Shown: positions 54,580-64,000 of the stretch, piece after piece
How the letters are laid out: each line of letters begins with the position of its first letter
Position numbering within the stretch: the stretch's first letter is position 1
Assembly: GCA_937868075.1 (NCBI GenBank)
Contig: CALMLL010000025.1
Span: forward strand, 1-64,000
Source: an uncultured Marmoricola sp.
GTDB taxonomy: Bacteria > Actinomycetota > Actinomycetes > Propionibacteriales > Nocardioidaceae
DNA length: 64,000 nucleotides
Reading direction: 5' to 3'
Program-made: the position numbers and the translations under genes
The notes under the pieces: model-generated
What the model was told of the DNA's origin: nothing
Databases searched by the model: none
The model's input: only the letters and a program-made list of their open reading frames with translations

Positions 54580-55551
54580 TTAGGGAACAGTGACGACCTG
54601 GGCGGCATAGCTCAAGCCCGCGCCGAAGGCGATCAACAGCGCTGTGTCCCCGGACTTGGCGCGGCCGTCGGCGAGCATCGCGTGCAGGGCCAGCGGCACA
54701 CTGGCCGCCGAGGTGTTGCCGGTGTGGGTGATGTCGTTGGCGATCTGGACCTCGGGGGGCAGTTTCATCGCCCGCGCCAACGCGTCGACGATGCGCATGT
54801 TGGCTTGGTGGGGAACGAACACATCGAGATCCGCAGCGGTGATGCCGGACCTCTCGAGTGTTTGGTGGGCCACCTTGGCCATCTCATAGACCGCCCATCG
54901 GAAGACCGAGTTGCCCTCCATCACGAGGTGGGGCATGCGCGGGTTGTCGGAGTGAACGACTTCGCGCCAATCCTCCTTCTGCCGGATCAGGTCGTACTTA
55001 CCGCCGTCGCTGCCCCAGACGACCGGCCCGATGCCGGTCTCATCGCTGGGCCCGACAACGGCCGCACCGGCGCCGTCGGCGAACAAGAACGCGGTACCGC
55101 GGTCGTCGGGGTCGGTGATGTCGGACAGGCGCTCGACCCCGATCACGACGGCGTACTTGGCCGAGCCGGCCTTCACCGCGTCGCTGGCCAGGGCGATGCC
55201 GTGGCAGAAGCCGGCGCAGGCCGCTGAGATGTCGAAGGCGGCCGCGTCAACGGCCCCGAGTTGGTGGGCGACCATCGTGGCCGCGGAGGGGGTCTGCAGC
55301 ATGTGGGAGACGGTGGCCACGATCACCAGATCGACCTGGCTGGGCTCGATTCCGGCGTGTTCGAGAGCCTCGCGAGCCGAATTGACCGACATCACTTCGA
55401 CGGTCTCTTCCGGTGTGGCCAAGCGCCGCTCGATGATGCCCGACCGGGTGCGGATCCATTCGTCACTGGAGTCGATGCGGTCGACGATCTCGGAGTTGGG
55501 CACGATGCGGCTGGCCCGGTGGACCCCGATTCCCAAGATGGCGGTGCTCAT
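54580..55551 (-). CDS. fabH: FabH: beta-ketoacyl-ACP synthase III
   Basis: 323 aa. The catalytic triad is Cys in DISAACAGFCHGI, His in VPHQANMRI and Asn in HTGNTSAAS. It condenses an acyl-CoA primer with malonyl-ACP to start chain synthesis. The chain-start preference (straight or branched) cannot be judged from motifs. The ATG overlaps the fabD stop (ATGA). Confidence 0.95.
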   Translation of the reverse strand: MSTAILGIGVHRASRIVPNSEIVDRIDSSDEWIRTRSGIIERRLATPEETVEVMSVNSAREALEHAGIEPSQVDLVIVATVSHMLQTPSAATMVAHQLGAVDAAAFDISAACAGFCHGIALASDAVKAGSAKYAVVIGVERLSDITDPDDRGTAFLFADGAGAAVVGPSDETGIGPVVWGSDGGKYDLIRQKEDWREVVHSDNPRMPHLVMEGNSVFRWAVYEMAKVAHQTLERSGITAADLDVFVPHQANMRIVDALARAMKLPPEVQIANDITHTGNTSAASVPLALHAMLADGRAKSGDTALLIAFGAGLSYAAQVVTVP

Positions 55552-56729
55552 GCCGGCACCACCACGTCAGGGTAGAGACGCAACAGGGGTTGGCCTGGTG
55601 AGACCAGATCGCCGTCTTCGACCAGCCACTCCAGCACAGTGCCGCCGTGGGGCGCGACGACGGGAGTCTCCTCACGCAGACTGCGCACGCTTCCGATGCG
55701 AGCGGCCGGGACGAGGGTGTCGCTGATCTCCTCGCGGACGAAGGTGCCCTTGGCGGGAGCCACCAGCAGGCGCCAGGTCGGGGAGGTGTCGATCGTGGAG
55801 GGGGTCCCGTGGCGGTCGCAGAACTCTCGCGCCTGGTCGAGTTGGTCGGGGGTCTTGAGGGCAAAGGTCTCGACGCCGGGCAGTGCCCGCTTGGCGATGC
55901 CGGTGAGGGTGCCGGCGGGCGGCATCTCCAGGATGCCGGTCACGCCGAGATCGGTCATGGTCTGCAAGCAGAGGTCCCAGCGGACCGGACGGGCCACCTG
56001 GGTCACGATGCGGCGTACGACGTCTCGCCCGTCATGGATCACGAGGCCATCGGCGTTGGAGATGACCGGGGTGCGGGGATCGTGGGTGGACACGCCCATT
56101 GCCAAACGACCCATGACCGAGACGGCCGGAGCCATGTGCTCGGTGTGGAACGCGCCTGCCACCGAGAGCGGCATCAGCCGCGCCTTGGCGGGTGGCTCGT
56201 CGGCGAGCGCGGCCAGTTGTTCCATGGTGCCGGCTGCGACGATCTGGCCGGGACCGTTGATGTTGGCCGGGGTCAGACCATGGGTGTGCAGGCTGGCCAG
56301 CACCTCGTCGCGGTCGCCACCGAGGATCGCGGTCATGCCGGTTGGCACGCTGGCGGCAGCGTTGGCCATGGCCCGGCCACGTTCGCGGACCAGCACCATG
56401 GCCTGCTCGGCGGTGATGGCGCGCGCGCCGGCGGCAGCAGTGAGTTCACCCACCGAGTGGCCCGCTACCGCACCGATCCGACCGAAGGCATCGGCCGGGT
56501 GTGGGAACAGGGCCAGCGCGGCCACCAGTCCGGCGCCGACCAGCAGTGGTTGGGCGACCGCAGTGTCGCGGATGGTCTCTGCGTCCGCCACGGTGCCGTA
56601 GTGCGCCAGGTCGATCCCGGCGACCGCGCCCAGCCAGTCCAGCCGCTGGGCGAAGGCGGTGTCCTCGAGCCACGGAGTGAGGAAGCCTGGAGTCTGCGCG
56701 CCTTGGCCCGGCGCAACGATGATGAGCAC
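55548..56729 (-). CDS. fabD: FabD: malonyl-CoA:ACP transacylase with C-terminal biotinyl/lipoyl-like domain
   Basis: 393 aa, about 80 residues longer than usual FabD. Residues 1-308 are the acyltransferase: GQGAQTPGF, nucleophile S92 in GHSVGE, and H195 in AGAFHTEHM. After a short linker (306-317), residues about 318-390 look like a barrel-sandwich hybrid: VAPAKGTFVRE, a turn near RIGSVRS, then VVAPHGGTVLEWLVEDGDLV and PGQPLLRL. Where carriers have AMKM, this has SLRE, so there is no modifiable lysine. GTG start with a weak ribosome site. Confidence 0.92.
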   Translation of the reverse strand: MLIIVAPGQGAQTPGFLTPWLEDTAFAQRLDWLGAVAGIDLAHYGTVADAETIRDTAVAQPLLVGAGLVAALALFPHPADAFGRIGAVAGHSVGELTAAAGARAITAEQAMVLVRERGRAMANAAASVPTGMTAILGGDRDEVLASLHTHGLTPANINGPGQIVAAGTMEQLAALADEPPAKARLMPLSVAGAFHTEHMAPAVSVMGRLAMGVSTHDPRTPVISNADGLVIHDGRDVVRRIVTQVARPVRWDLCLQTMTDLGVTGILEMPPAGTLTGIAKRALPGVETFALKTPDQLDQAREFCDRHGTPSTIDTSPTWRLLVAPAKGTFVREEISDTLVPAARIGSVRSLREETPVVAPHGGTVLEWLVEDGDLVSPGQPLLRLYPDVVVPA

Positions 56730-56777: not shown

Positions 56778-56814
56778 CCAATACCGACCGGTTGATTTGT
56801 AGGTTTCCTACAAA
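56778..56814 (-). promoter_or_regulatory. fabD promoter and probable FasR operator
   Basis: TTTGTAGGTTTCCTACAAA (56796-56814) is a perfect 8-bp inverted repeat with a 3-nt spacer. It covers the fasR stop codon. On the minus strand TATTGG (56783-56778) may be the -10, so the palindrome would sit at the -35, the usual place for an activator such as FasR. The leader would be about 40 nt. Confidence 0.6.
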
Positions 56815-57962
56815 GAACTCGTGTCCCCAGCGAGGCGACCCAACGTGAGGGCCACTCTCAGGGTGTAGGCGTCGCGGGCGTCCAAGGGTTGGAGCCCGGT
56901 CAGTTCCTGCACCCGCCGAAGCCGGTAGCGCACCGTGTTGGCGTGGACGAACAGCGCCCGGGCCGCAGCCTCCAGCGAACTCCCCGCGTCGAGGAACGTC
57001 TGGGCCGTTTCCAGCACCGCCGAGCCCGCCGTTGCCAATGGTCGGTAGATCTGGCTGACCAACCAGTCCACAGCATCCGCGTCACCCACCAGCGCCCGCT
57101 CCGGCAACAAGGCGTCGGCATGGATGACGTGGGGGGCGTCGACCCAGGCGCGGGCCACCCGATGGCCGGACAGAGCCGCCGCCGCTGATCGGGGTACGTC
57201 GTGCAACGAGTCCACGACCGGACCGATCACCACAGCCTCAGATCCGAGCACGGCCGAGAGCGCCTCGGGGGGCTCGGGATCGGATCCGCCGAGCAGGACC
57301 ACCATGCGATGGCCCTGCACCGCGCAGAGAGCGTGCAGGCCGTGGTCTGCGGCCAGTTGGTGGATCACATCGACAGGGTTGGCGTCCCCGTCGGGCACAC
57401 CGCCGACGACGGTGACGATGCGTGTGTGTGGGTCCCACCCCAGCGCGCTGGCGCGGGACTCGACGGTGCCGTCGGTCTCACCGCGCAGCACCGAGTCGAC
57501 GACCAGGGCTTCTAGGCGGGCATCCCAGGCGCCGCGTTGCTCGGCGGCCCGGGCATAGACCTCGGCGATGGCGAAACCGATCTCGCGGCCGTACCTGGTC
57601 ACCGCGGCGATCGCGTCCGGGGCGTCGTCGGGACCGAGGACGTCGACGAGGTTCTCCTCCACCACGCCAATCACCAGTCGGACCATCGCCACGGTGCGAG
57701 CCAGGCTGATCTGGCCCGCGAAGGCCCGGGGCGCCGCACCGAAGACGTCGTGGAGCACTTTGGGTCGGGGACGTTCATCGGCGGCGTACCAGTCGACGAA
57801 GCTGCGCACGCCGCCCTGGACAACCATGCCGATCCAGGCTCGCTCCTGGGCGCCGAGGTCGGTGAACCAGGGGAGTTCCCGTTCGATCCGGCTCACTGCG
57901 GTGGTGCTGAGCCGACCCACGGATTGCCGCAATCGCTGGGTGACGACTTTGGAGGGACCCAC
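56808..57962 (-). CDS. fasR: FasR-like PucR/CdaR-family regulator of fatty-acid synthesis
   Basis: 384 aa. The N-terminal and central parts are helical sensor-like sequence, and the C-terminal PucR HTH is LEAAARALFVHANTVRYRLRRV (split) followed by LTGLQPLDARDAYTLRVAL. In Streptomyces a protein of this family, FasR, lies directly upstream of fabD-fabH-acpP-fabF and activates them; the same order is seen here. Start GTG with TAAGGT ending 6 nt upstream, so probably leaderless. Confidence 0.88.
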   Translation of the reverse strand: MGPSKVVTQRLRQSVGRLSTTAVSRIERELPWFTDLGAQERAWIGMVVQGGVRSFVDWYAADERPRPKVLHDVFGAAPRAFAGQISLARTVAMVRLVIGVVEENLVDVLGPDDAPDAIAAVTRYGREIGFAIAEVYARAAEQRGAWDARLEALVVDSVLRGETDGTVESRASALGWDPHTRIVTVVGGVPDGDANPVDVIHQLAADHGLHALCAVQGHRMVVLLGGSDPEPPEALSAVLGSEAVVIGPVVDSLHDVPRSAAAALSGHRVARAWVDAPHVIHADALLPERALVGDADAVDWLVSQIYRPLATAGSAVLETAQTFLDAGSSLEAAARALFVHANTVRYRLRRVQELTGLQPLDARDAYTLRVALTLGRLAGDTSSL

Positions 57963-58044: not shown

Positions 58045-59019
58045 GTGGCGTCAGGTCTGGCAGTGCAGCAGGTCACGATCCACGGTCACCACCGGGCCTA
58101 CGTGAAAGCCGGAAGCGGTCCGGCGCTCCTGCTGCTGCACGGTCTGGGCTGCGACCTTCACACCTGGGATCCCGTGATCAGGGAACTTGCCGAACGGTTC
58201 ACCGTCGTGGCCCCCGACCTCCTCGGCCACGGCGAGTCGGACAAGCCCCGCGCCGACTACTCCATCGGCGGCTACGCCAACGGGATGCGCGACCTGCTCA
58301 CCGTGCTGGGCATCGATCGCGCCACCGTGGTCGGGCACAGCTTCGGTGGAGGCGTGGCGATGCAGTTCGCCTACCAGTTCCCCGAACGCACCGAGAGGGT
58401 GCTCCTGGTCGCCCCCGGCGGTCTCGGCCCCGAAGTCAACCCTGCGGTGCGGGCGGTGACCTTGCCCGGGTTCCAGCAGGCGATGGCGGTGGCCACCTTG
58501 CCCGGTGTGCGCCACGTCGGTACGACGCTGATGCGCCTGCTCGCCTTGACCAAGTCGCCGGCGCTGCGTGACCTCGATGAGGTCGCCGCGATCTATGACT
58601 CCTTCCGGGACCCCGCCGCGCGGGCCGCGATCTCCCATGTGGTGCGCGCCTGTATCGACTGGAAGGGACAGGTCATCACGATGGCCGATCGGGCCTACCT
58701 GACGCGGGCGGTGCCGATGTGCGTGATCTGGGGGGAGGAGGACGCGGTCATTCCGGCCGAACACGCCGAGATCGCTCGCGTGCTCATGCCCGATGCCGAC
58801 ATCGAACTGGTGCCGGATTCGGGCCACTTCCCCCACAAGGACCACCCCGAGCGCTTCATCAAGATCCTCACCGACTTCGTCGACACCACCGAGTCGGCCC
58901 GCCACGATCACGACGAGTGGCGCGACCTGCTCAGCCACGGACCGGCCGCGCCGCGGGTGCGCGAGCGCGCCGGTGCCTTCCCGCGCACTCCGGTGCTGCG
59001 GCGCATCGGCAACGTCTAG
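58045..59019 (+). CDS. Alpha/beta-fold hydrolase
   Basis: 324 aa from the GTG at 58045, chosen for GGAGGA 5 nt upstream; a GTG at 58021 is in frame but lacks a ribosome site. Motifs are LLLHGLGCDLHTW (oxyanion), VVGHSFGGGVAMQF (nucleophile Ser), WGEEDAVIP (acid) and DSGHFPHKDHPERF (His). It is close in type to C-C bond hydrolases and epoxide or lactone hydrolases, but the substrate is unknown. Divergent from fasR, and its stop shares CTAG with the BASS transporter gene. Confidence 0.85.
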   Translation: MASGLAVQQVTIHGHHRAYVKAGSGPALLLLHGLGCDLHTWDPVIRELAERFTVVAPDLLGHGESDKPRADYSIGGYANGMRDLLTVLGIDRATVVGHSFGGGVAMQFAYQFPERTERVLLVAPGGLGPEVNPAVRAVTLPGFQQAMAVATLPGVRHVGTTLMRLLALTKSPALRDLDEVAAIYDSFRDPAARAAISHVVRACIDWKGQVITMADRAYLTRAVPMCVIWGEEDAVIPAEHAEIARVLMPDADIELVPDSGHFPHKDHPERFIKILTDFVDTTESARHDHDEWRDLLSHGPAAPRVRERAGAFPRTPVLRRIGNV

Positions 59020-59975
59020 CTGGCAGTCGCCGGTTCGGCCCCTGCGGTCCGGGCCCGCCAGACCCGGGCGAGCGCGAGCGCGGCGATGATGTCCCAGATT
59101 CCCCACCACGCGGCTACCAGTGCCATGCCTCCGAGCCCGTCGAAGAAACTGAACACCAAGAGCAGACCCAGTCCTGCGTTGCGGACACCGACCTCGAACG
59201 TCATGGCCTTGGTCGAGTCGGTCGGCAGCCGGAAGGCTCGTGCGATGGCATAGCCCAGGCCCAGCGCCAAGGCGTCGTGGAGGAAGACCGCGATCGCGAC
59301 CACACCGATCCAGGACACGAAGATCCGCCAGTTGCCCAACAGGGCCACCAGAATCAGCGTACCCAGGGCGAGGAAGGCGATCGGGCTGACCACCCGCCCC
59401 GCCTTGCCGGCCATGCGTGGCCACACGTGGGCCACCGCGATGCCGACGACGAAGGGCACTCCGATCACGACCAGCACCTCGACCAGCATGTCCAGGGGAT
59501 CGAGTTTGATCCGCCGCATGAGCGCGCCACCGGTGGGGTGCAAGCTGCCCCAGAGGGCGAAGTTGAGCGGCATCAAGAAGATCGCCAGGAGGTTGCTCAC
59601 CGCGGTCATCGAGACCGACAACGCGACATCACCCTTGGCTTGGTGGGTGACGATGTTGGAAACGTTCCCCGGCGGGCAGCACGCCACCAGGATCATCCCG
59701 AGTGCCACCGATCCGCGCACGCCCAACACCAACGTGAGAGCGAAGGTGATCGCGGGCAGCAGGACGAACTGCGCGCCGACGCCGATCGCGATCGCCTTGG
59801 GTCGGCGGGCGGCGCGGCGGAAGTCCTCCACGGTCGTGTCCAGGGCGATCCCGAAGAGGATCGTGGCGATGATGATCCGCAGCAGCACCCGGGAGTTCTC
59901 GTTGAAGGCGATCGAGATGTCGTCGACACCGCCCGTAGGGGCCAGGAGTGAGACGACGGTCATCACATGGTTCAT
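59016..59975 (-). CDS. BASS-family (bile acid:Na+ symporter-like) transporter
   Basis: 319 aa with about nine or ten hydrophobic segments. Family motifs are the CCPPGNVSNIVTHQAKGD loop and TFEVGVRNAGLGLLL, which hold residues that bind Na+ and substrate in bacterial ASBT homologues. It probably imports an organic anion with sodium. The ATG overlaps the stop of the epimerase gene upstream (ATGA), so it is the third gene of a ThDP-enzyme operon. Confidence 0.87.
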   Translation of the reverse strand: MNHVMTVVSLLAPTGGVDDISIAFNENSRVLLRIIIATILFGIALDTTVEDFRRAARRPKAIAIGVGAQFVLLPAITFALTLVLGVRGSVALGMILVACCPPGNVSNIVTHQAKGDVALSVSMTAVSNLLAIFLMPLNFALWGSLHPTGGALMRRIKLDPLDMLVEVLVVIGVPFVVGIAVAHVWPRMAGKAGRVVSPIAFLALGTLILVALLGNWRIFVSWIGVVAIAVFLHDALALGLGYAIARAFRLPTDSTKAMTFEVGVRNAGLGLLLVFSFFDGLGGMALVAAWWGIWDIIAALALARVWRARTAGAEPATAS

Positions 59976-60928
59976 GAGGGGTCCCCCGATTCGGTGCGGC
60001 GTCCCTGGCGGAACACCTCGTAGGTCTGGGCGGTGGTTTTCGTGGGCAGTCCCGGGAAGTCCCTGCGCAGGCGGGTGTTGTCGAGCACGGGGCGGTGCAA
60101 CAAGAAGTCCACCTGTTCGGGGCCGTAACGACCCACGCCGAGTGCCTTCATCACCTGCAGCGCTCGACGTACGACGGCGGGAGGGACGACCAGCACCGGT
60201 TTGCCCTCGATCCTGGCGATGTCTCGCATCGTCATCACCCCGTCACCGGCGAGGTTGTAGATCCCGGTACGCCGACTGCGGACCCCCGCCACCACGACGT
60301 CGGCCACGTCGTGGTCCCAGATGAAGGTGAAGGGCGAATCGGCGCCCCGGAAGGTGAGGATGCGACGACCCGTGAATAGGGCGGTGATCTGATTGTCGGT
60401 CCCCGCACCCAGGATCGTGCCCGGTCGAAGCACGAGCTGGCCCACCTGCGGGTGCAGCCGTCGGGCGCGGGCGAGGAGTTCCTCCACCGCCGCCTTGTGG
60501 CGGGAGTACGCGAACTCGGGATGGCCCGGTGTGGGGGTGTCCTCGGTGAGCAGGTGTCCGTCGTTGCGAGCGTCGTAGCCGTAGGCGGCCCCCGAGGAGG
60601 TGACGCTCAGGTGGCCCACGCCGGCCGCGACACAGGCGTCGACGACTCGTTGGGTGCCGCCGACCTCGATGTCCTCGAGTTCGGACTCGCTCATGCCCTT
60701 GGGAGGTTCGACGATCGCGGCAAGGTGGACCACCGCGTCGACGGCGTACTCGGTGAAGAGTGCGGCGAGATCGAGGTCGCGCAGATCCCCCTGGAGATAG
60801 GTGACCCCCTCCACGGGGATGCGCGGCGCGCGAATGTCCACGGCGATGGTGGTCTCGCCCGCCGCTGCGAGGCGTTCGACCACGAGGGTGCCGAGGTATC
60901 CGCAGCCGCCGGTGACAAGCACGCTCAT
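59972..60928 (-). CDS. NAD-dependent epimerase/dehydratase (extended SDR)
   Basis: 318 aa from the ATG at 60926-60928, which lies 2 nt after the ThDP-enzyme stop. The NAD loop is VTGGCGYLGTLV (TGxxGxxG), with VHLAAIV, TSSGAAYGYD (Ser) and the active YSRHKAA (YxxxK). The C-terminal half binds substrate. It could be a sugar-nucleotide epimerase, a hydroxysteroid-type dehydrogenase or a reductase; operon context does not settle it. Confidence 0.85.
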   Translation of the reverse strand: MSVLVTGGCGYLGTLVVERLAAAGETTIAVDIRAPRIPVEGVTYLQGDLRDLDLAALFTEYAVDAVVHLAAIVEPPKGMSESELEDIEVGGTQRVVDACVAAGVGHLSVTSSGAAYGYDARNDGHLLTEDTPTPGHPEFAYSRHKAAVEELLARARRLHPQVGQLVLRPGTILGAGTDNQITALFTGRRILTFRGADSPFTFIWDHDVADVVVAGVRSRRTGIYNLAGDGVMTMRDIARIEGKPVLVVPPAVVRRALQVMKALGVGRYGPEQVDFLLHRPVLDNTRLRRDFPGLPTKTTAQTYEVFRQGRRTESGDPS

Positions 60929-60930
60929 GG

Positions 60931-62706
60931 TCAGCCCTTGGGCTCTTGGTGCATCTTCTTGAACGATTGCAGCCCAGGCGCCCACAGGTGCTCGACATTG
61001 TCGACCTCCACCGCGACGACCGCCGGACGGCCGCAGTCGCGGGCCCGCTCCAAGGCTCCAGACAGTTGACCGGGCTCGGTGACGTGCTCGCCATGGGCGC
61101 CGAACGCTTCGGCGAGCAGGTCGTAGCGGCAGGGGGCGAAGTCGGCGTACACGATCTGGTCGGCCGGCAGCGACTGGCCCAGGAGCATCTTGCGGGCCAC
61201 GGTCGCCACGGGATGAGCCTGGATCTGCTGGCTCATCTTCACCATGCCCCACTGGCCGTCCACCATCACGACGTAGACGATCGGCAGGCCCAGCCGCACC
61301 GCACTCTCGACTTCGCTGGGGTGCATCCCGAACGCGCCGTCGCCGATCAACACGCACACCCGACGGTCTGGTGCTGCCACGGCGGCGCCGAGCGCCTGGC
61401 CCATGCCTGCTCCGAGCATCCCGAACTTGAAGGTCGACAGCACCGTGTTGGGGATCTCCGCGTGGTGGTAGAAGCTCGACCACACCACGGTGTTGCCGCC
61501 GTCGAAGACCCACACCGTGTCATCGGGCATGACCTTCTGTGCCGTGTGCGGCACCAGGGCCGGGTGGACCCGCGATCCCGCCGAGGGACTGAGTGGCTTG
61601 TCGAGGCGAGCCCGCTCTCGAGTCCAGGTCTCCCGCCACGTCTGCAGTTGCCGCGTTCGCCGGTCGTGATCGGGTACGCCGCCGAGGCGCTCCACAGCGT
61701 CGGCGAGGTCTCGCAGGGCTTCACGGGCATCGGCGAGCAGGGAGATCTCGACGGGCTTGTTGACCCCGAGCCGGTCGTCGTCGACATCGATCTGGATGGT
61801 CTTCTGGGTGGCCGGACTGGCCCAGTTGGGGGCCTTGCCCCACCAGTCGGTCTCGCCGAGGCGAGAACCGACCACCAGTGCGGTGTCGGCCGCGTTGCGC
61901 ACGTCGTCGACGACCTCGAGCGCGGTCATGGGGATTGCTTCGAGGCGGGTCTCGGGAAGGGCGCCGCGGGCCGCCCACGAGGTGGTGACCGGCGCCGCGA
62001 GCAGACCCGCCAGCCGCGCCAACTCGGCCTCGGCGCCGGCGTGGTAGACCCCAGATCCGACATGGATGAGTGGTTGGGCGGCATCGATGAGCAGGCGGGC
62101 GGCGCGCTCGATCAACACCGGGTCGGCCTGCAGGGGGGTGACGCGGCGATAGGTGTGGGGAGCCCGCGCCGCGTCGGGACCCCAGCCGCTGGGCTGGTTG
62201 ATCAGATTCTCGGGAATGTCCACATGCACCACACCGGGCCTGCCGGTGAAGCTCTCCCGGAAGGCCCGCCGGATCAACTCCGGGATCCGATCCGCAGATG
62301 GGCAGTAGCCGCTCCACTTGGTCATCGGGCCGGTGACCGCGGTCTGGTCGAAGTACTGGTAGGTGCCGCCCCGGTCGGGGTGGCCGATGCCGACCCGCCG
62401 CGCAGAGGTGATCAGGAGCACCCGGTTGCCCTCGCCCTCCTCCACCGCGACGCCGGGCAGCACGTTGGCCACTCCGGGGCCGTTGGAGGCGATGCAGACT
62501 CCGATGCGTCCGGTCAGTCGGGCATAGGCGCCGGCCATGTGTGCCGCGGCCGCCTCGTGGCGCGGGGAGTGCAACGTGATCCCGGCTTCTTCGAGGGCGC
62601 GGTAGAGCCCGAAATAGGTGCCGTCGATGATCCCGAAGACGTGTTCAACCCCTTCGGCTGCCAGCATGCGAGCGATCACCTGACCGCCGGTCAGTCCTTT
62701 GGCCAT
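60931..62706 (-). CDS. ThDP-dependent enzyme, acetolactate synthase / oxalyl-CoA decarboxylase-like
   Basis: 591 aa with the three-domain layout: Pyr domain with catalytic Glu E51 in SPRHEAAAAHMAGAYARL, central domain, and PP domain with GDG at 455-457. The usual Mg-ligand NN about 26 residues later is V482-D483 here (MVDGQWGMVK), so Asp would replace the second Asn. AGGAGGAG precedes the ATG. Substrates could be a 2-keto acid or acyl-CoA. It heads the operon with an epimerase and a BASS transporter and diverges from a PucR regulator. Confidence 0.82.
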   Translation of the reverse strand: MAKGLTGGQVIARMLAAEGVEHVFGIIDGTYFGLYRALEEAGITLHSPRHEAAAAHMAGAYARLTGRIGVCIASNGPGVANVLPGVAVEEGEGNRVLLITSARRVGIGHPDRGGTYQYFDQTAVTGPMTKWSGYCPSADRIPELIRRAFRESFTGRPGVVHVDIPENLINQPSGWGPDAARAPHTYRRVTPLQADPVLIERAARLLIDAAQPLIHVGSGVYHAGAEAELARLAGLLAAPVTTSWAARGALPETRLEAIPMTALEVVDDVRNAADTALVVGSRLGETDWWGKAPNWASPATQKTIQIDVDDDRLGVNKPVEISLLADAREALRDLADAVERLGGVPDHDRRTRQLQTWRETWTRERARLDKPLSPSAGSRVHPALVPHTAQKVMPDDTVWVFDGGNTVVWSSFYHHAEIPNTVLSTFKFGMLGAGMGQALGAAVAAPDRRVCVLIGDGAFGMHPSEVESAVRLGLPIVYVVMVDGQWGMVKMSQQIQAHPVATVARKMLLGQSLPADQIVYADFAPCRYDLLAEAFGAHGEHVTEPGQLSGALERARDCGRPAVVAVEVDNVEHLWAPGLQSFKKMHQEPKG

Positions 62707-62750
62707 CGACTGCTCCTCCTCTGGTGCGGCTGAGGTGTCCCTTGCTTCTC

Positions 62751-62780
62751 AACGTAGAGGCCCGCCGCGGCGACTGTCTT
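62751..62780 (-). promoter_or_regulatory. Promoter of the ThDP-enzyme operon
   Basis: On the minus strand AAGACA (62780-62775) and TACGTT (62756-62751) are 18 bp apart. The predicted start is near 62744, with a leader of about 38 nt holding AGGAGGAG. Confidence 0.45.
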
Positions 62781-62808
62781 GTGATCGCACGCCTCGCTCC
62801 GCGCTCTC

Positions 62809-62826
62809 GTTGTGGCTGGCCACAAC
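62809..62826. promoter_or_regulatory. 18-bp perfect palindrome between divergent promoters (probable PucR operator)
   Basis: GTTGTGGCTGGCCACAAC consists of two 8-bp arms around TG. It lies just upstream of the -10 (62833-62838) of the regulator gene, covering its -35 region, and about 65-80 bp upstream of the predicted operon start. That fits a site for autoregulation and activation of the operon. Confidence 0.6.
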
Positions 62827-62832
62827 TGTTGG

Positions 62833-62838
62833 CATAGT
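62833..62838 (+). promoter_or_regulatory. -10 hexamer for a leaderless PucR mRNA
   Basis: CATAGT ends 7 nt before the ATG at 62846, with no ribosome site. Confidence 0.5.
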
Positions 62839-62845
62839 CCGGCCC

Positions 62846-64000
62846 ATGTCAACCTCCTCCGACACCGGGCCCGGCACCGCTGTCCACCCACCGCCACGCG
62901 AGGACTGGAGCGCGATCTCCGACCTGATCGAGCGGGTTTCGGCCGAGTCTGACTTGTTGGAGTCGATCGCGGAGGAGGTGCGTTCCTCGATTCGGGAGAT
63001 TGCCGGGGTCGAGGCTGCCGATGTGGCCCGCCACACTCGCGCACTGCTCTCGGCCTCGACACGGGCCATCGAGGCCAGGCGCGGACCGACCGAGGCCGAG
63101 CTCGGTTTCGTCGCCGACCTGGCGGTCACCCGAGCACGCCAGGGCGTCCCGATCCACGCGGTGCTGAGCGGGATCCGCATCGCCGAGCGCCGGATCTGGG
63201 CCCGCGCCGTACGCCGAGCGGGGGAGGCGGGTATCTCGGCCGATCTCGTCCTGCAGGCCCGCGAGTTGTACGACGACTGGGCCCATCAGGTGCGAGAACG
63301 CCTACTCCTGGCCCACCGAGCCGCAGAGGCCGACGAGAGCGGCCATCCGCGCGGTCGGGCACTGGTGCGTCGGCTCCTTGAAGGGGGCGCCCCGGCGGCG
63401 TTGGCCGCCGCGGAGGCGGGACTGCCGGGCATGGTGGTGGTGGGCGTCGCCCCCGGTCTGGTCGGTGCCGCGCGCGAATCACTGATCTCCCGCGTCTCTG
63501 CCCTGCCTGCCACGGTGGCCACCGTCGACGCCGGTGAGGTCGTCGTGGTCTCGCGAGGGATCCGATCCACGGGGTCGGACTCGCTGTTGGTCCTGGCCGG
63601 GCCCGGACCTGTCGAAGAGGTCCCGGTGCTGCGACGACTGGCCGTGACCGGTGCTCGGGCGGCCGCCACCCTGGGTCGCCGCGGGGTGGTGCACGTGGGT
63701 GAGGTGGCCAGCCTGGCCGCCCTCTGGGACCGTGCCGACCTTGCCGCCGCACTCGTGGAGCATCACGGCGCGGCGTTGGCACGACTCGGCCGCAACACCG
63801 CCGCCAATCTGGACACGGTTCGTTCCTGGTTGGAGCATCGCCAAGACACCGAGGCAACAGCCAGCGCCTGTTTCGTGCACCCCAACACCGTGCGTAACCG
63901 GGTGCACGCAGTGGTCGAACTCACCGGGCTCGATCCCCGGGATCCCTTTGCCGCCGTGGACCTGTGGTGGCTGTGTTCGACGTGGCCCGAGCGTCACGTA
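62846..64000 (+). CDS. PucR/CdaR-family transcriptional regulator (3' end outside window)
   Basis: 385 codons are visible without a stop; the window ends near the true C-terminus. The N-terminal half is helical (SDLIERVSAESDLLESIAEE, GIRIAERRIWARAVRRAG). The central region is alpha/beta, and the C-terminal PucR HTH is ASACFVHPNTVRNRVHAVVE followed by LTGLDPRDPFAAVDLWWL. It resembles FasR in layout. It is divergent from the ThDP operon, with a palindrome in between, so it probably controls that operon in response to a small-molecule substrate. Confidence 0.85.
   Translation, partial: MSTSSDTGPGTAVHPPPREDWSAISDLIERVSAESDLLESIAEEVRSSIREIAGVEAADVARHTRALLSASTRAIEARRGPTEAELGFVADLAVTRARQGVPIHAVLSGIRIAERRIWARAVRRAGEAGISADLVLQARELYDDWAHQVRERLLLAHRAAEADESGHPRGRALVRRLLEGGAPAALAAAEAGLPGMVVVGVAPGLVGAARESLISRVSALPATVATVDAGEVVVVSRGIRSTGSDSLLVLAGPGPVEEVPVLRRLAVTGARAAATLGRRGVVHVGEVASLAALWDRADLAAALVEHHGAALARLGRNTAANLDTVRSWLEHRQDTEATASACFVHPNTVRNRVHAVVELTGLDPRDPFAAVDLWWLCSTWPERHV

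Follow-up and report, generated by a model that had tools for sequence, protein, structure and literature searches.

Sulfonates hold much of the organic sulphur of soil and sea, and to our knowledge not all of the routes by which they are degraded are known. One enzyme of these routes, sulfoacetaldehyde acetyltransferase (Xsc), works in the taurine and isethionate pathways among others. In the known pathways for sulfolactate and DHPS, the enzymes SlcC/ComC/SlcD and ComDE lead to sulfoacetaldehyde, and Xsc then acts on it (PMC11382572). A second point of reference for the locus described here is the HKA synthases, homologues of CybE whose products are alpha-hydroxy-beta-keto acids (PMC12395478).

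The window analysed in this work is a stretch of 64,000 nucleotides from an uncultured Marmoricola sp. (contig CALMLL010000025.1, positions 1 to 64,000). Near its right end lies an operon for a ThDP-dependent enzyme, an SDR and a BASS transporter. These components are of known kinds; their combination, the family of the ThDP enzyme and the link to Xsc are new as far as we have checked. We found no description of this gene set, or of Xsc with these partners, in the open-access literature.

Results

The original prediction for this region described three tightly coupled leftward genes with a divergent PucR-type regulator, and gene calls and domain searches bore out its genes, spacings and orientations throughout. 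On the minus strand, the gene of a 591-aa ThDP-dependent enzyme with three TPP domains (60931..62706), whose family has no characterised member, is followed after a 2-nt gap by that of an extended SDR of the epimerase/dehydrogenase type (59972..60928). The SDR gene in turn shares a 4-nt ATGA overlap with the gene of a BASS (SBF) transporter, a probable organic anion importer (59016..59975). The PucR-type gene, recognised by its HTH_30 domain, runs on the plus strand from 62846 to the end of the window at 64000 and on to its stop at 64012; the contig extends to 65973. The divergent genes are separated by a 139 bp intergenic region (62707..62845) that is likely the control region, and the corresponding spacer measures 85-182 bp in three Nocardioides-like relatives with PucR upstream. 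At the far end of the operon, an alpha/beta hydrolase gene (58060..59019, plus strand) converges on the BASS gene, the two stops overlapping by 4 nt. The 3′ end of the PucR gene overlaps the 3′ end of the convergent aceE gene by a few bases.

The four genes of the cassette have been inserted into a conserved stretch of resident genes, aceE - hydrolase - fasR - fabD - fabH. A copy of the hydrolase, 62-82% identical, adjoins a fasR-type PucR gene (56808-57962 in the window) in 10 of 11 congener loci. Five of these loci also take in aceE, which lies tail to tail with the hydrolase across an empty site of 96-189 bp. In the window the four genes of the cassette, and nothing else, lie between the two, about 4.99 kb from hydrolase stop to aceE stop (59020-64008 in full, 59020..64000 within the window). 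Because the cassette has split a resident hydrolase/aceE pair whose empty site is seen in congeners, it is an insertion and the hydrolase is a bystander. The convergent hydrolase noted originally is therefore real and does end on the BASS gene, but it is chromosome-resident in congeners and does not belong to the operon. As a resident gene of the genus, lying beside fasR and facing aceE, it was ruled out as a member of the pathway.

Among 98 relatives, the window's own genome was the only one with the cassette, which was found in 5 of 396 sampled Actinomycetota. Such rarity, combined with the insertion, points to possible horizontal transfer. No match was found in plasmid records at E 1e-60. 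The GC content of the insertion matches that of the host (0.689 against 0.679 +/- 0.008), so base composition gives no hint of the donor. At either edge, the outermost cassette gene runs over the resident stop codon by about four bases. Two further observations concern the resident locus itself. The FabD-like acyltransferase (55548-56729) carries a C-terminal extension (TPVVAPHGGTVLEWLVEDGDLVSPGQPLLRLYP) that has a biotinyl/lipoyl-type look, with no obvious attachment lysine, and the search output lists a single in-frame TGA in the fasR-type gene of one congener locus (L096).

The ThDP protein was scanned against 84,980 species genomes, and the best 80 of 371 relatives were taken. Four further loci came from whole-genome searches, and the locus set comprises 85. 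By record title, these loci belong to the Actinomycetota, Pseudomonadota, Bacillota, Myxococcota, Desulfobacterota, Bacteroidota, Hydrogenedentota and Binatota, and the ThDP enzymes are 51-80% identical (44 sequences aligned). A neighbour was counted if it lay on the same strand and no more than 6 kb from the ThDP gene. By this measure an extended SDR gene accompanies the ThDP gene in 70 loci and a BASS gene in 59, with some of each hidden by contig ends. The association of both with the ThDP gene is far above chance. Outside the Nocardioides-like branch the order is mostly ThDP-BASS-SDR, and a classical SDR (PRK06181-like) follows in more than 40 loci.

Distance matrices from 51 loci were correlated at 0.89 for ThDP/SDR, 0.77 for ThDP/BASS and 0.70 for SDR/BASS, values reached by none of 2000 permutations. 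Such matching distances reflect species descent as well as co-inheritance, and they speak against recent chance assembly. The original prediction could have failed had these genes not kept company in other genomes; the neighbourhood search found the set co-occurring across at least eight phyla. Its retention over that range argues that the three genes form a functional unit, as had been proposed. No conserved extra pathway genes (CoA ligases, CoA transferases, further oxidoreductases) were found around the cassettes, where the frequent neighbours proved unrelated (GGDEF, HD-GYP, PAS, DEAD-box, LptF, haem and others).

With N, M and C TPP domains in a single 591-aa chain, the enzyme belongs to the ThDP superfamily. 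An unnamed curated model (cut-off 571) gives 278 bits. It scores 274 bits against a cut-off of 538 for acetolactate synthase (TIGR00118), 246.7 against 676.4 for Xsc (TIGR03457; 245.9 in the genome search), 201 against 600 for 2-hydroxyacyl-CoA lyase (NF058623) and 202 against 557 for oxalyl-CoA decarboxylase (NF006721). The sulfopyruvate decarboxylase ComDE is absent among the NCBIfam matches listed for the enzyme, which is a single chain and not two subunits. Judged by these scores, the enzyme is outside every characterised or curated family compared.

The catalytic Glu51, Gln117, Gly455-Asp456-Gly457 and Asp483 are invariant in all 85 sequences, and Gln117 aligns with the conserved Gln of Xsc. 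We take Asp483 to occupy the second metal-ligand position of the GDG-N motif; in ThDP enzymes the second metal-binding residue is usually Asn, and here it is Asp in every family member. An AlphaFold2 model built from 44 family members (mean pLDDT 90.1, pTM 0.92) has as its closest solved fold the HKA synthase BbmA (Z 41.5, rmsd 2.6 over 522 residues, 30% identity), which also gives a sequence match of 226 bits. Benzaldehyde lyases and 2-hydroxyacyl-CoA lyase/synthases come no more than 2 Z units from BbmA, and on fold the three types cannot be separated. The conserved residues are those of an active-looking family, probably one of C-C lyases, ligases or decarboxylases.

The extended SDR domain scores 96.7 bits against a cut-off of 20.9, and its glycine-rich NAD motif, NAD-type Asp33 and YxxxK motif (Tyr143, Lys147; alignment numbering) are invariant or nearly so. 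For the classical SDR of other cassettes, the window's genome holds only a 34% partial match. The transporter belongs to the BASS/SBF family (PF01758, 126.8 bits against 24.3), with Ser106, Asn107 and Glu261 invariant in 58 sequences. Its EVGxQN motif reads EVGVRN in the window (residue 265), a change of Gln to Arg found in 6 of 58 relatives, from the Nocardioides-like and Hydrogenedentota branches. We take this Gln position to lie near a sodium site known in ASBT, and the replacement could alter sodium coupling.

The regulator carries a C-terminal HTH_30 domain (59.9 bits against 27). It is real and divergent in the window, as originally described, but as a partner of the set it is confined to the Nocardioides-like branch, in 5 of the 85 loci. 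Elsewhere the regulators are GntR/UTRA in Bacillaceae and IclR or AraC, mostly in Betaproteobacteria.

The clue to a substrate comes from the genes upstream. At 11 of the 85 loci, which span three phyla (two Bacillaceae, one Desulfobacteraceae, eight in or near the Betaproteobacteria), the ThDP gene has xsc directly upstream on its own strand. The gap to the ThDP gene is 11-125 nt in nine of them and about 1 kb in another; in the remaining one the genes overlap, by a crude ORF call. All 11 proteins pass TIGR03457 at equivalog level, with 773-963 bits where 676 are needed. Identity between the three groups of Xsc is only 49-56%, so the pairing with the cassette is old or has arisen more than once. 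Six Bacillaceae have an iron alcohol dehydrogenase in the xsc slot between the GntR and ThDP genes; no Xsc came up when their whole genomes were searched. The presence of xsc or the iron alcohol dehydrogenase in one slot looks like two exits for one aldehyde.

The link extends beyond adjacency. Of 25 proteobacterial cassette genomes that lack an adjacent xsc, 12 encode the enzyme at another place, against 8 of 184 others from the class sample (Fisher p 4e-8, unmatched for genome size or phylogeny). At the gammaproteobacterial locus L046, a gene of the TauE/SafE sulfite-exporter family is divergent from the cassette, and a second gammaproteobacterial locus, L023, has a divergent gene of the same sequence cluster. 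None of the 23 genomes with both Xsc and the cassette has a ComE over the cut-off; weaker relatives (115-141 bits) occur in four of the 23, and in the 11 where Xsc is adjacent the matches are no more than traces. In those genomes, given the lack of an over-threshold ComE, the cassette could be the source of sulfoacetaldehyde. Of the C-S bond cleaving enzymes that would mark an organosulfonate cluster (Xsc, SuyAB or CuyA), the searches covered Xsc, which is not adjacent at the other 74 loci. No Xsc over the cut-off was found in the window's genome (2.99 Mb, 97% complete), and none in the cassette genomes L002-L011, which are mostly actinobacterial.

Several betaproteobacterial cassettes with Xsc have one or two extra classical SDR genes adjoining a divergent IclR gene (L017:5685-7264, L020:6538-7326, L042:6402-7205, L073:6490-7260), which suggests another oxidation step in those strains. 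Directly behind one of these cassettes is a 409-aa ORF (L073:14559-15788) with a relative in L020 and no Pfam or NCBIfam match.

Discussion

We put at about even the chances that the inserted operon is an organosulfonate-catabolism module in the window's genome, where its role is assigned by orthology. For the cassette family as a whole, the sulfonate reading is somewhat more likely. The original prediction of import and C-C cleavage of an organic acid fits the cassette, and Xsc adjacency in 11 genomes adds a pointer to a sulfonate.

The results above establish how the genes are ordered and conserved, that they co-evolve, which families they belong to, that Xsc can lie next door and that the cassette is inserted; from these we infer every reaction, the transport direction and the substrate of the following scheme. 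The BASS transporter would import a sulfonated organic acid, coupled to Na+. The extended SDR, elsewhere often together with a classical SDR, would oxidise a hydroxyl to a ketone, and the ThDP enzyme would then cleave the C-C bond beside the carbonyl, by decarboxylation or acyloin cleavage, to give sulfoacetaldehyde. Xsc, where present, would convert this to acetyl phosphate and sulfite, and in Bacillaceae without Xsc its reduction by the iron alcohol dehydrogenase would probably yield isethionate. In the window's genome, PucR would control the operon.

The simplest guess at the substrate would be 3-sulfolactate, by way of sulfopyruvate, since this is the smallest substrate needing one oxidation and one decarboxylation. 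Two SDRs could serve its two enantiomers. Alternatives would be 2,3-dihydroxypropanesulfonate or a four-carbon sulfo-sugar acid; kinship with the HKA synthases would allow a four-carbon hydroxy-keto acid to be split into sulfoacetaldehyde and glyoxylate. As Xsc is absent here and in other actinobacterial cassette genomes, this branch may use another substrate or exit. The absence of the classical SDR and the Arg variant of the BASS transporter may likewise mean that the substrate or exit differs in the window's branch.

It is also possible, though less likely, that the cassette handles a non-sulfonated organic acid, the original prediction in its general form. Some lineages would then have taken on Xsc for a step that is unrelated or merely analogous, and sulfonates would never be substrates of the actinobacterial copies. 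The many loci with no adjacent Xsc would fit such a history, as would the lack of the enzyme in the window's genome and in the L002-L011 genomes. In addition, the iron alcohol dehydrogenase of the six Bacillaceae loci scores nearer to enzymes of the lactaldehyde/ethanol type than to the model for sulfoacetaldehyde reductase. A further point against the sulfonate reading is that Xsc has a part in taurine and isethionate pathways too. However, Xsc adjoins the cassette in three phyla, in diverged Xsc groups, and is enriched elsewhere in cassette genomes, which argues for a sulfonate.

Other readings concern the ThDP enzyme. It could be a carboligase that makes an alpha-hydroxy-beta-keto acid, like CsmA/BbmA, in a biosynthetic operon. 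HKA synthases are its best solved relatives by both sequence and fold, but benzaldehyde lyase and 2-hydroxyacyl-CoA lyases come within 1-2 Z units, and identity is low. The constant partner is an importer-type transporter, to which some genomes add the degradative Xsc, and no biosynthetic neighbours were seen around the cassettes; we therefore regard a carboligase as improbable. The structural neighbours also include CoA-dependent 2-hydroxyacyl-CoA lyases and oxalyl-CoA decarboxylases, yet scores near 200 bits, where the cut-offs are 557-600, and the absence of a conserved CoA ligase or CoA transferase beside the cassette, make an enzyme of this kind very unlikely here. A divergent acetolactate synthase would belong to the same superfamily, but it is scarcely credible at half the curated cut-off for TIGR00118, with no small subunit adjacent and with an SDR and a BASS transporter as the constant partners. 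The original prediction, which would have been undone by a close match to such an enzyme, held on this point.

To return to sulfonates, the broader proposal is that the cassette represents a widespread, undescribed pathway for a natural sulfonate, in which new sulfoacetaldehyde-producing ThDP lyases and a BASS sulfonate importer are joined in a compact cassette in at least eight phyla. We consider this plausible, at slightly less than an even chance. If true, the cassette would give access to sulfoacetaldehyde by a new route, so far masked by generic family names, in organisms that range from Nocardioides to Bacillaceae, Rhodocyclales, Myxococcota and Flavobacteriia. It would also give a BASS transporter a sulfonate role and define a new family of ThDP lyases, which could be assayed by coupling to Xsc.

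Each component can be set beside a known relative. Like ASBT-Nm (3zux) and PanS, the transporter is of the BASS family and keeps the sodium-site Ser/Asn and Glu; unlike them, it scores below the TIGR00841 and PanS cut-offs, and its branch has Arg for the Gln of EVGxQN. The ThDP enzyme shares its fold and C-C lyase/ligase chemistry, the latter by prediction, with benzaldehyde lyase and the 2-hydroxyacyl-CoA lyases, but is only 25-27% identical to them and has no conserved CoA or aromatic pathway genes nearby. The HKA synthases BbmA/CsmA (PDB 8x3x, 8x3z) are the nearest solved structures, at about 30% identity and in another gene context. With Xsc, the enzyme has in common the ThDP superfamily and the conserved Glu, Gln and lysine after the GDG motif; it falls far below the TIGR03457 cut-off, however, and accompanies Xsc rather than replacing it. 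The closest parallel is the sulfolactate/DHPS pathway, in which, as proposed here, a dehydrogenase oxidises the sulfonate, a ThDP step gives sulfoacetaldehyde and Xsc follows. Whereas ComDE is a small two-subunit ThDP enzyme, the cassette combines one 591-aa ThDP enzyme with an extended SDR and a BASS transporter, and by this analogy it would be a non-homologous route to sulfoacetaldehyde.
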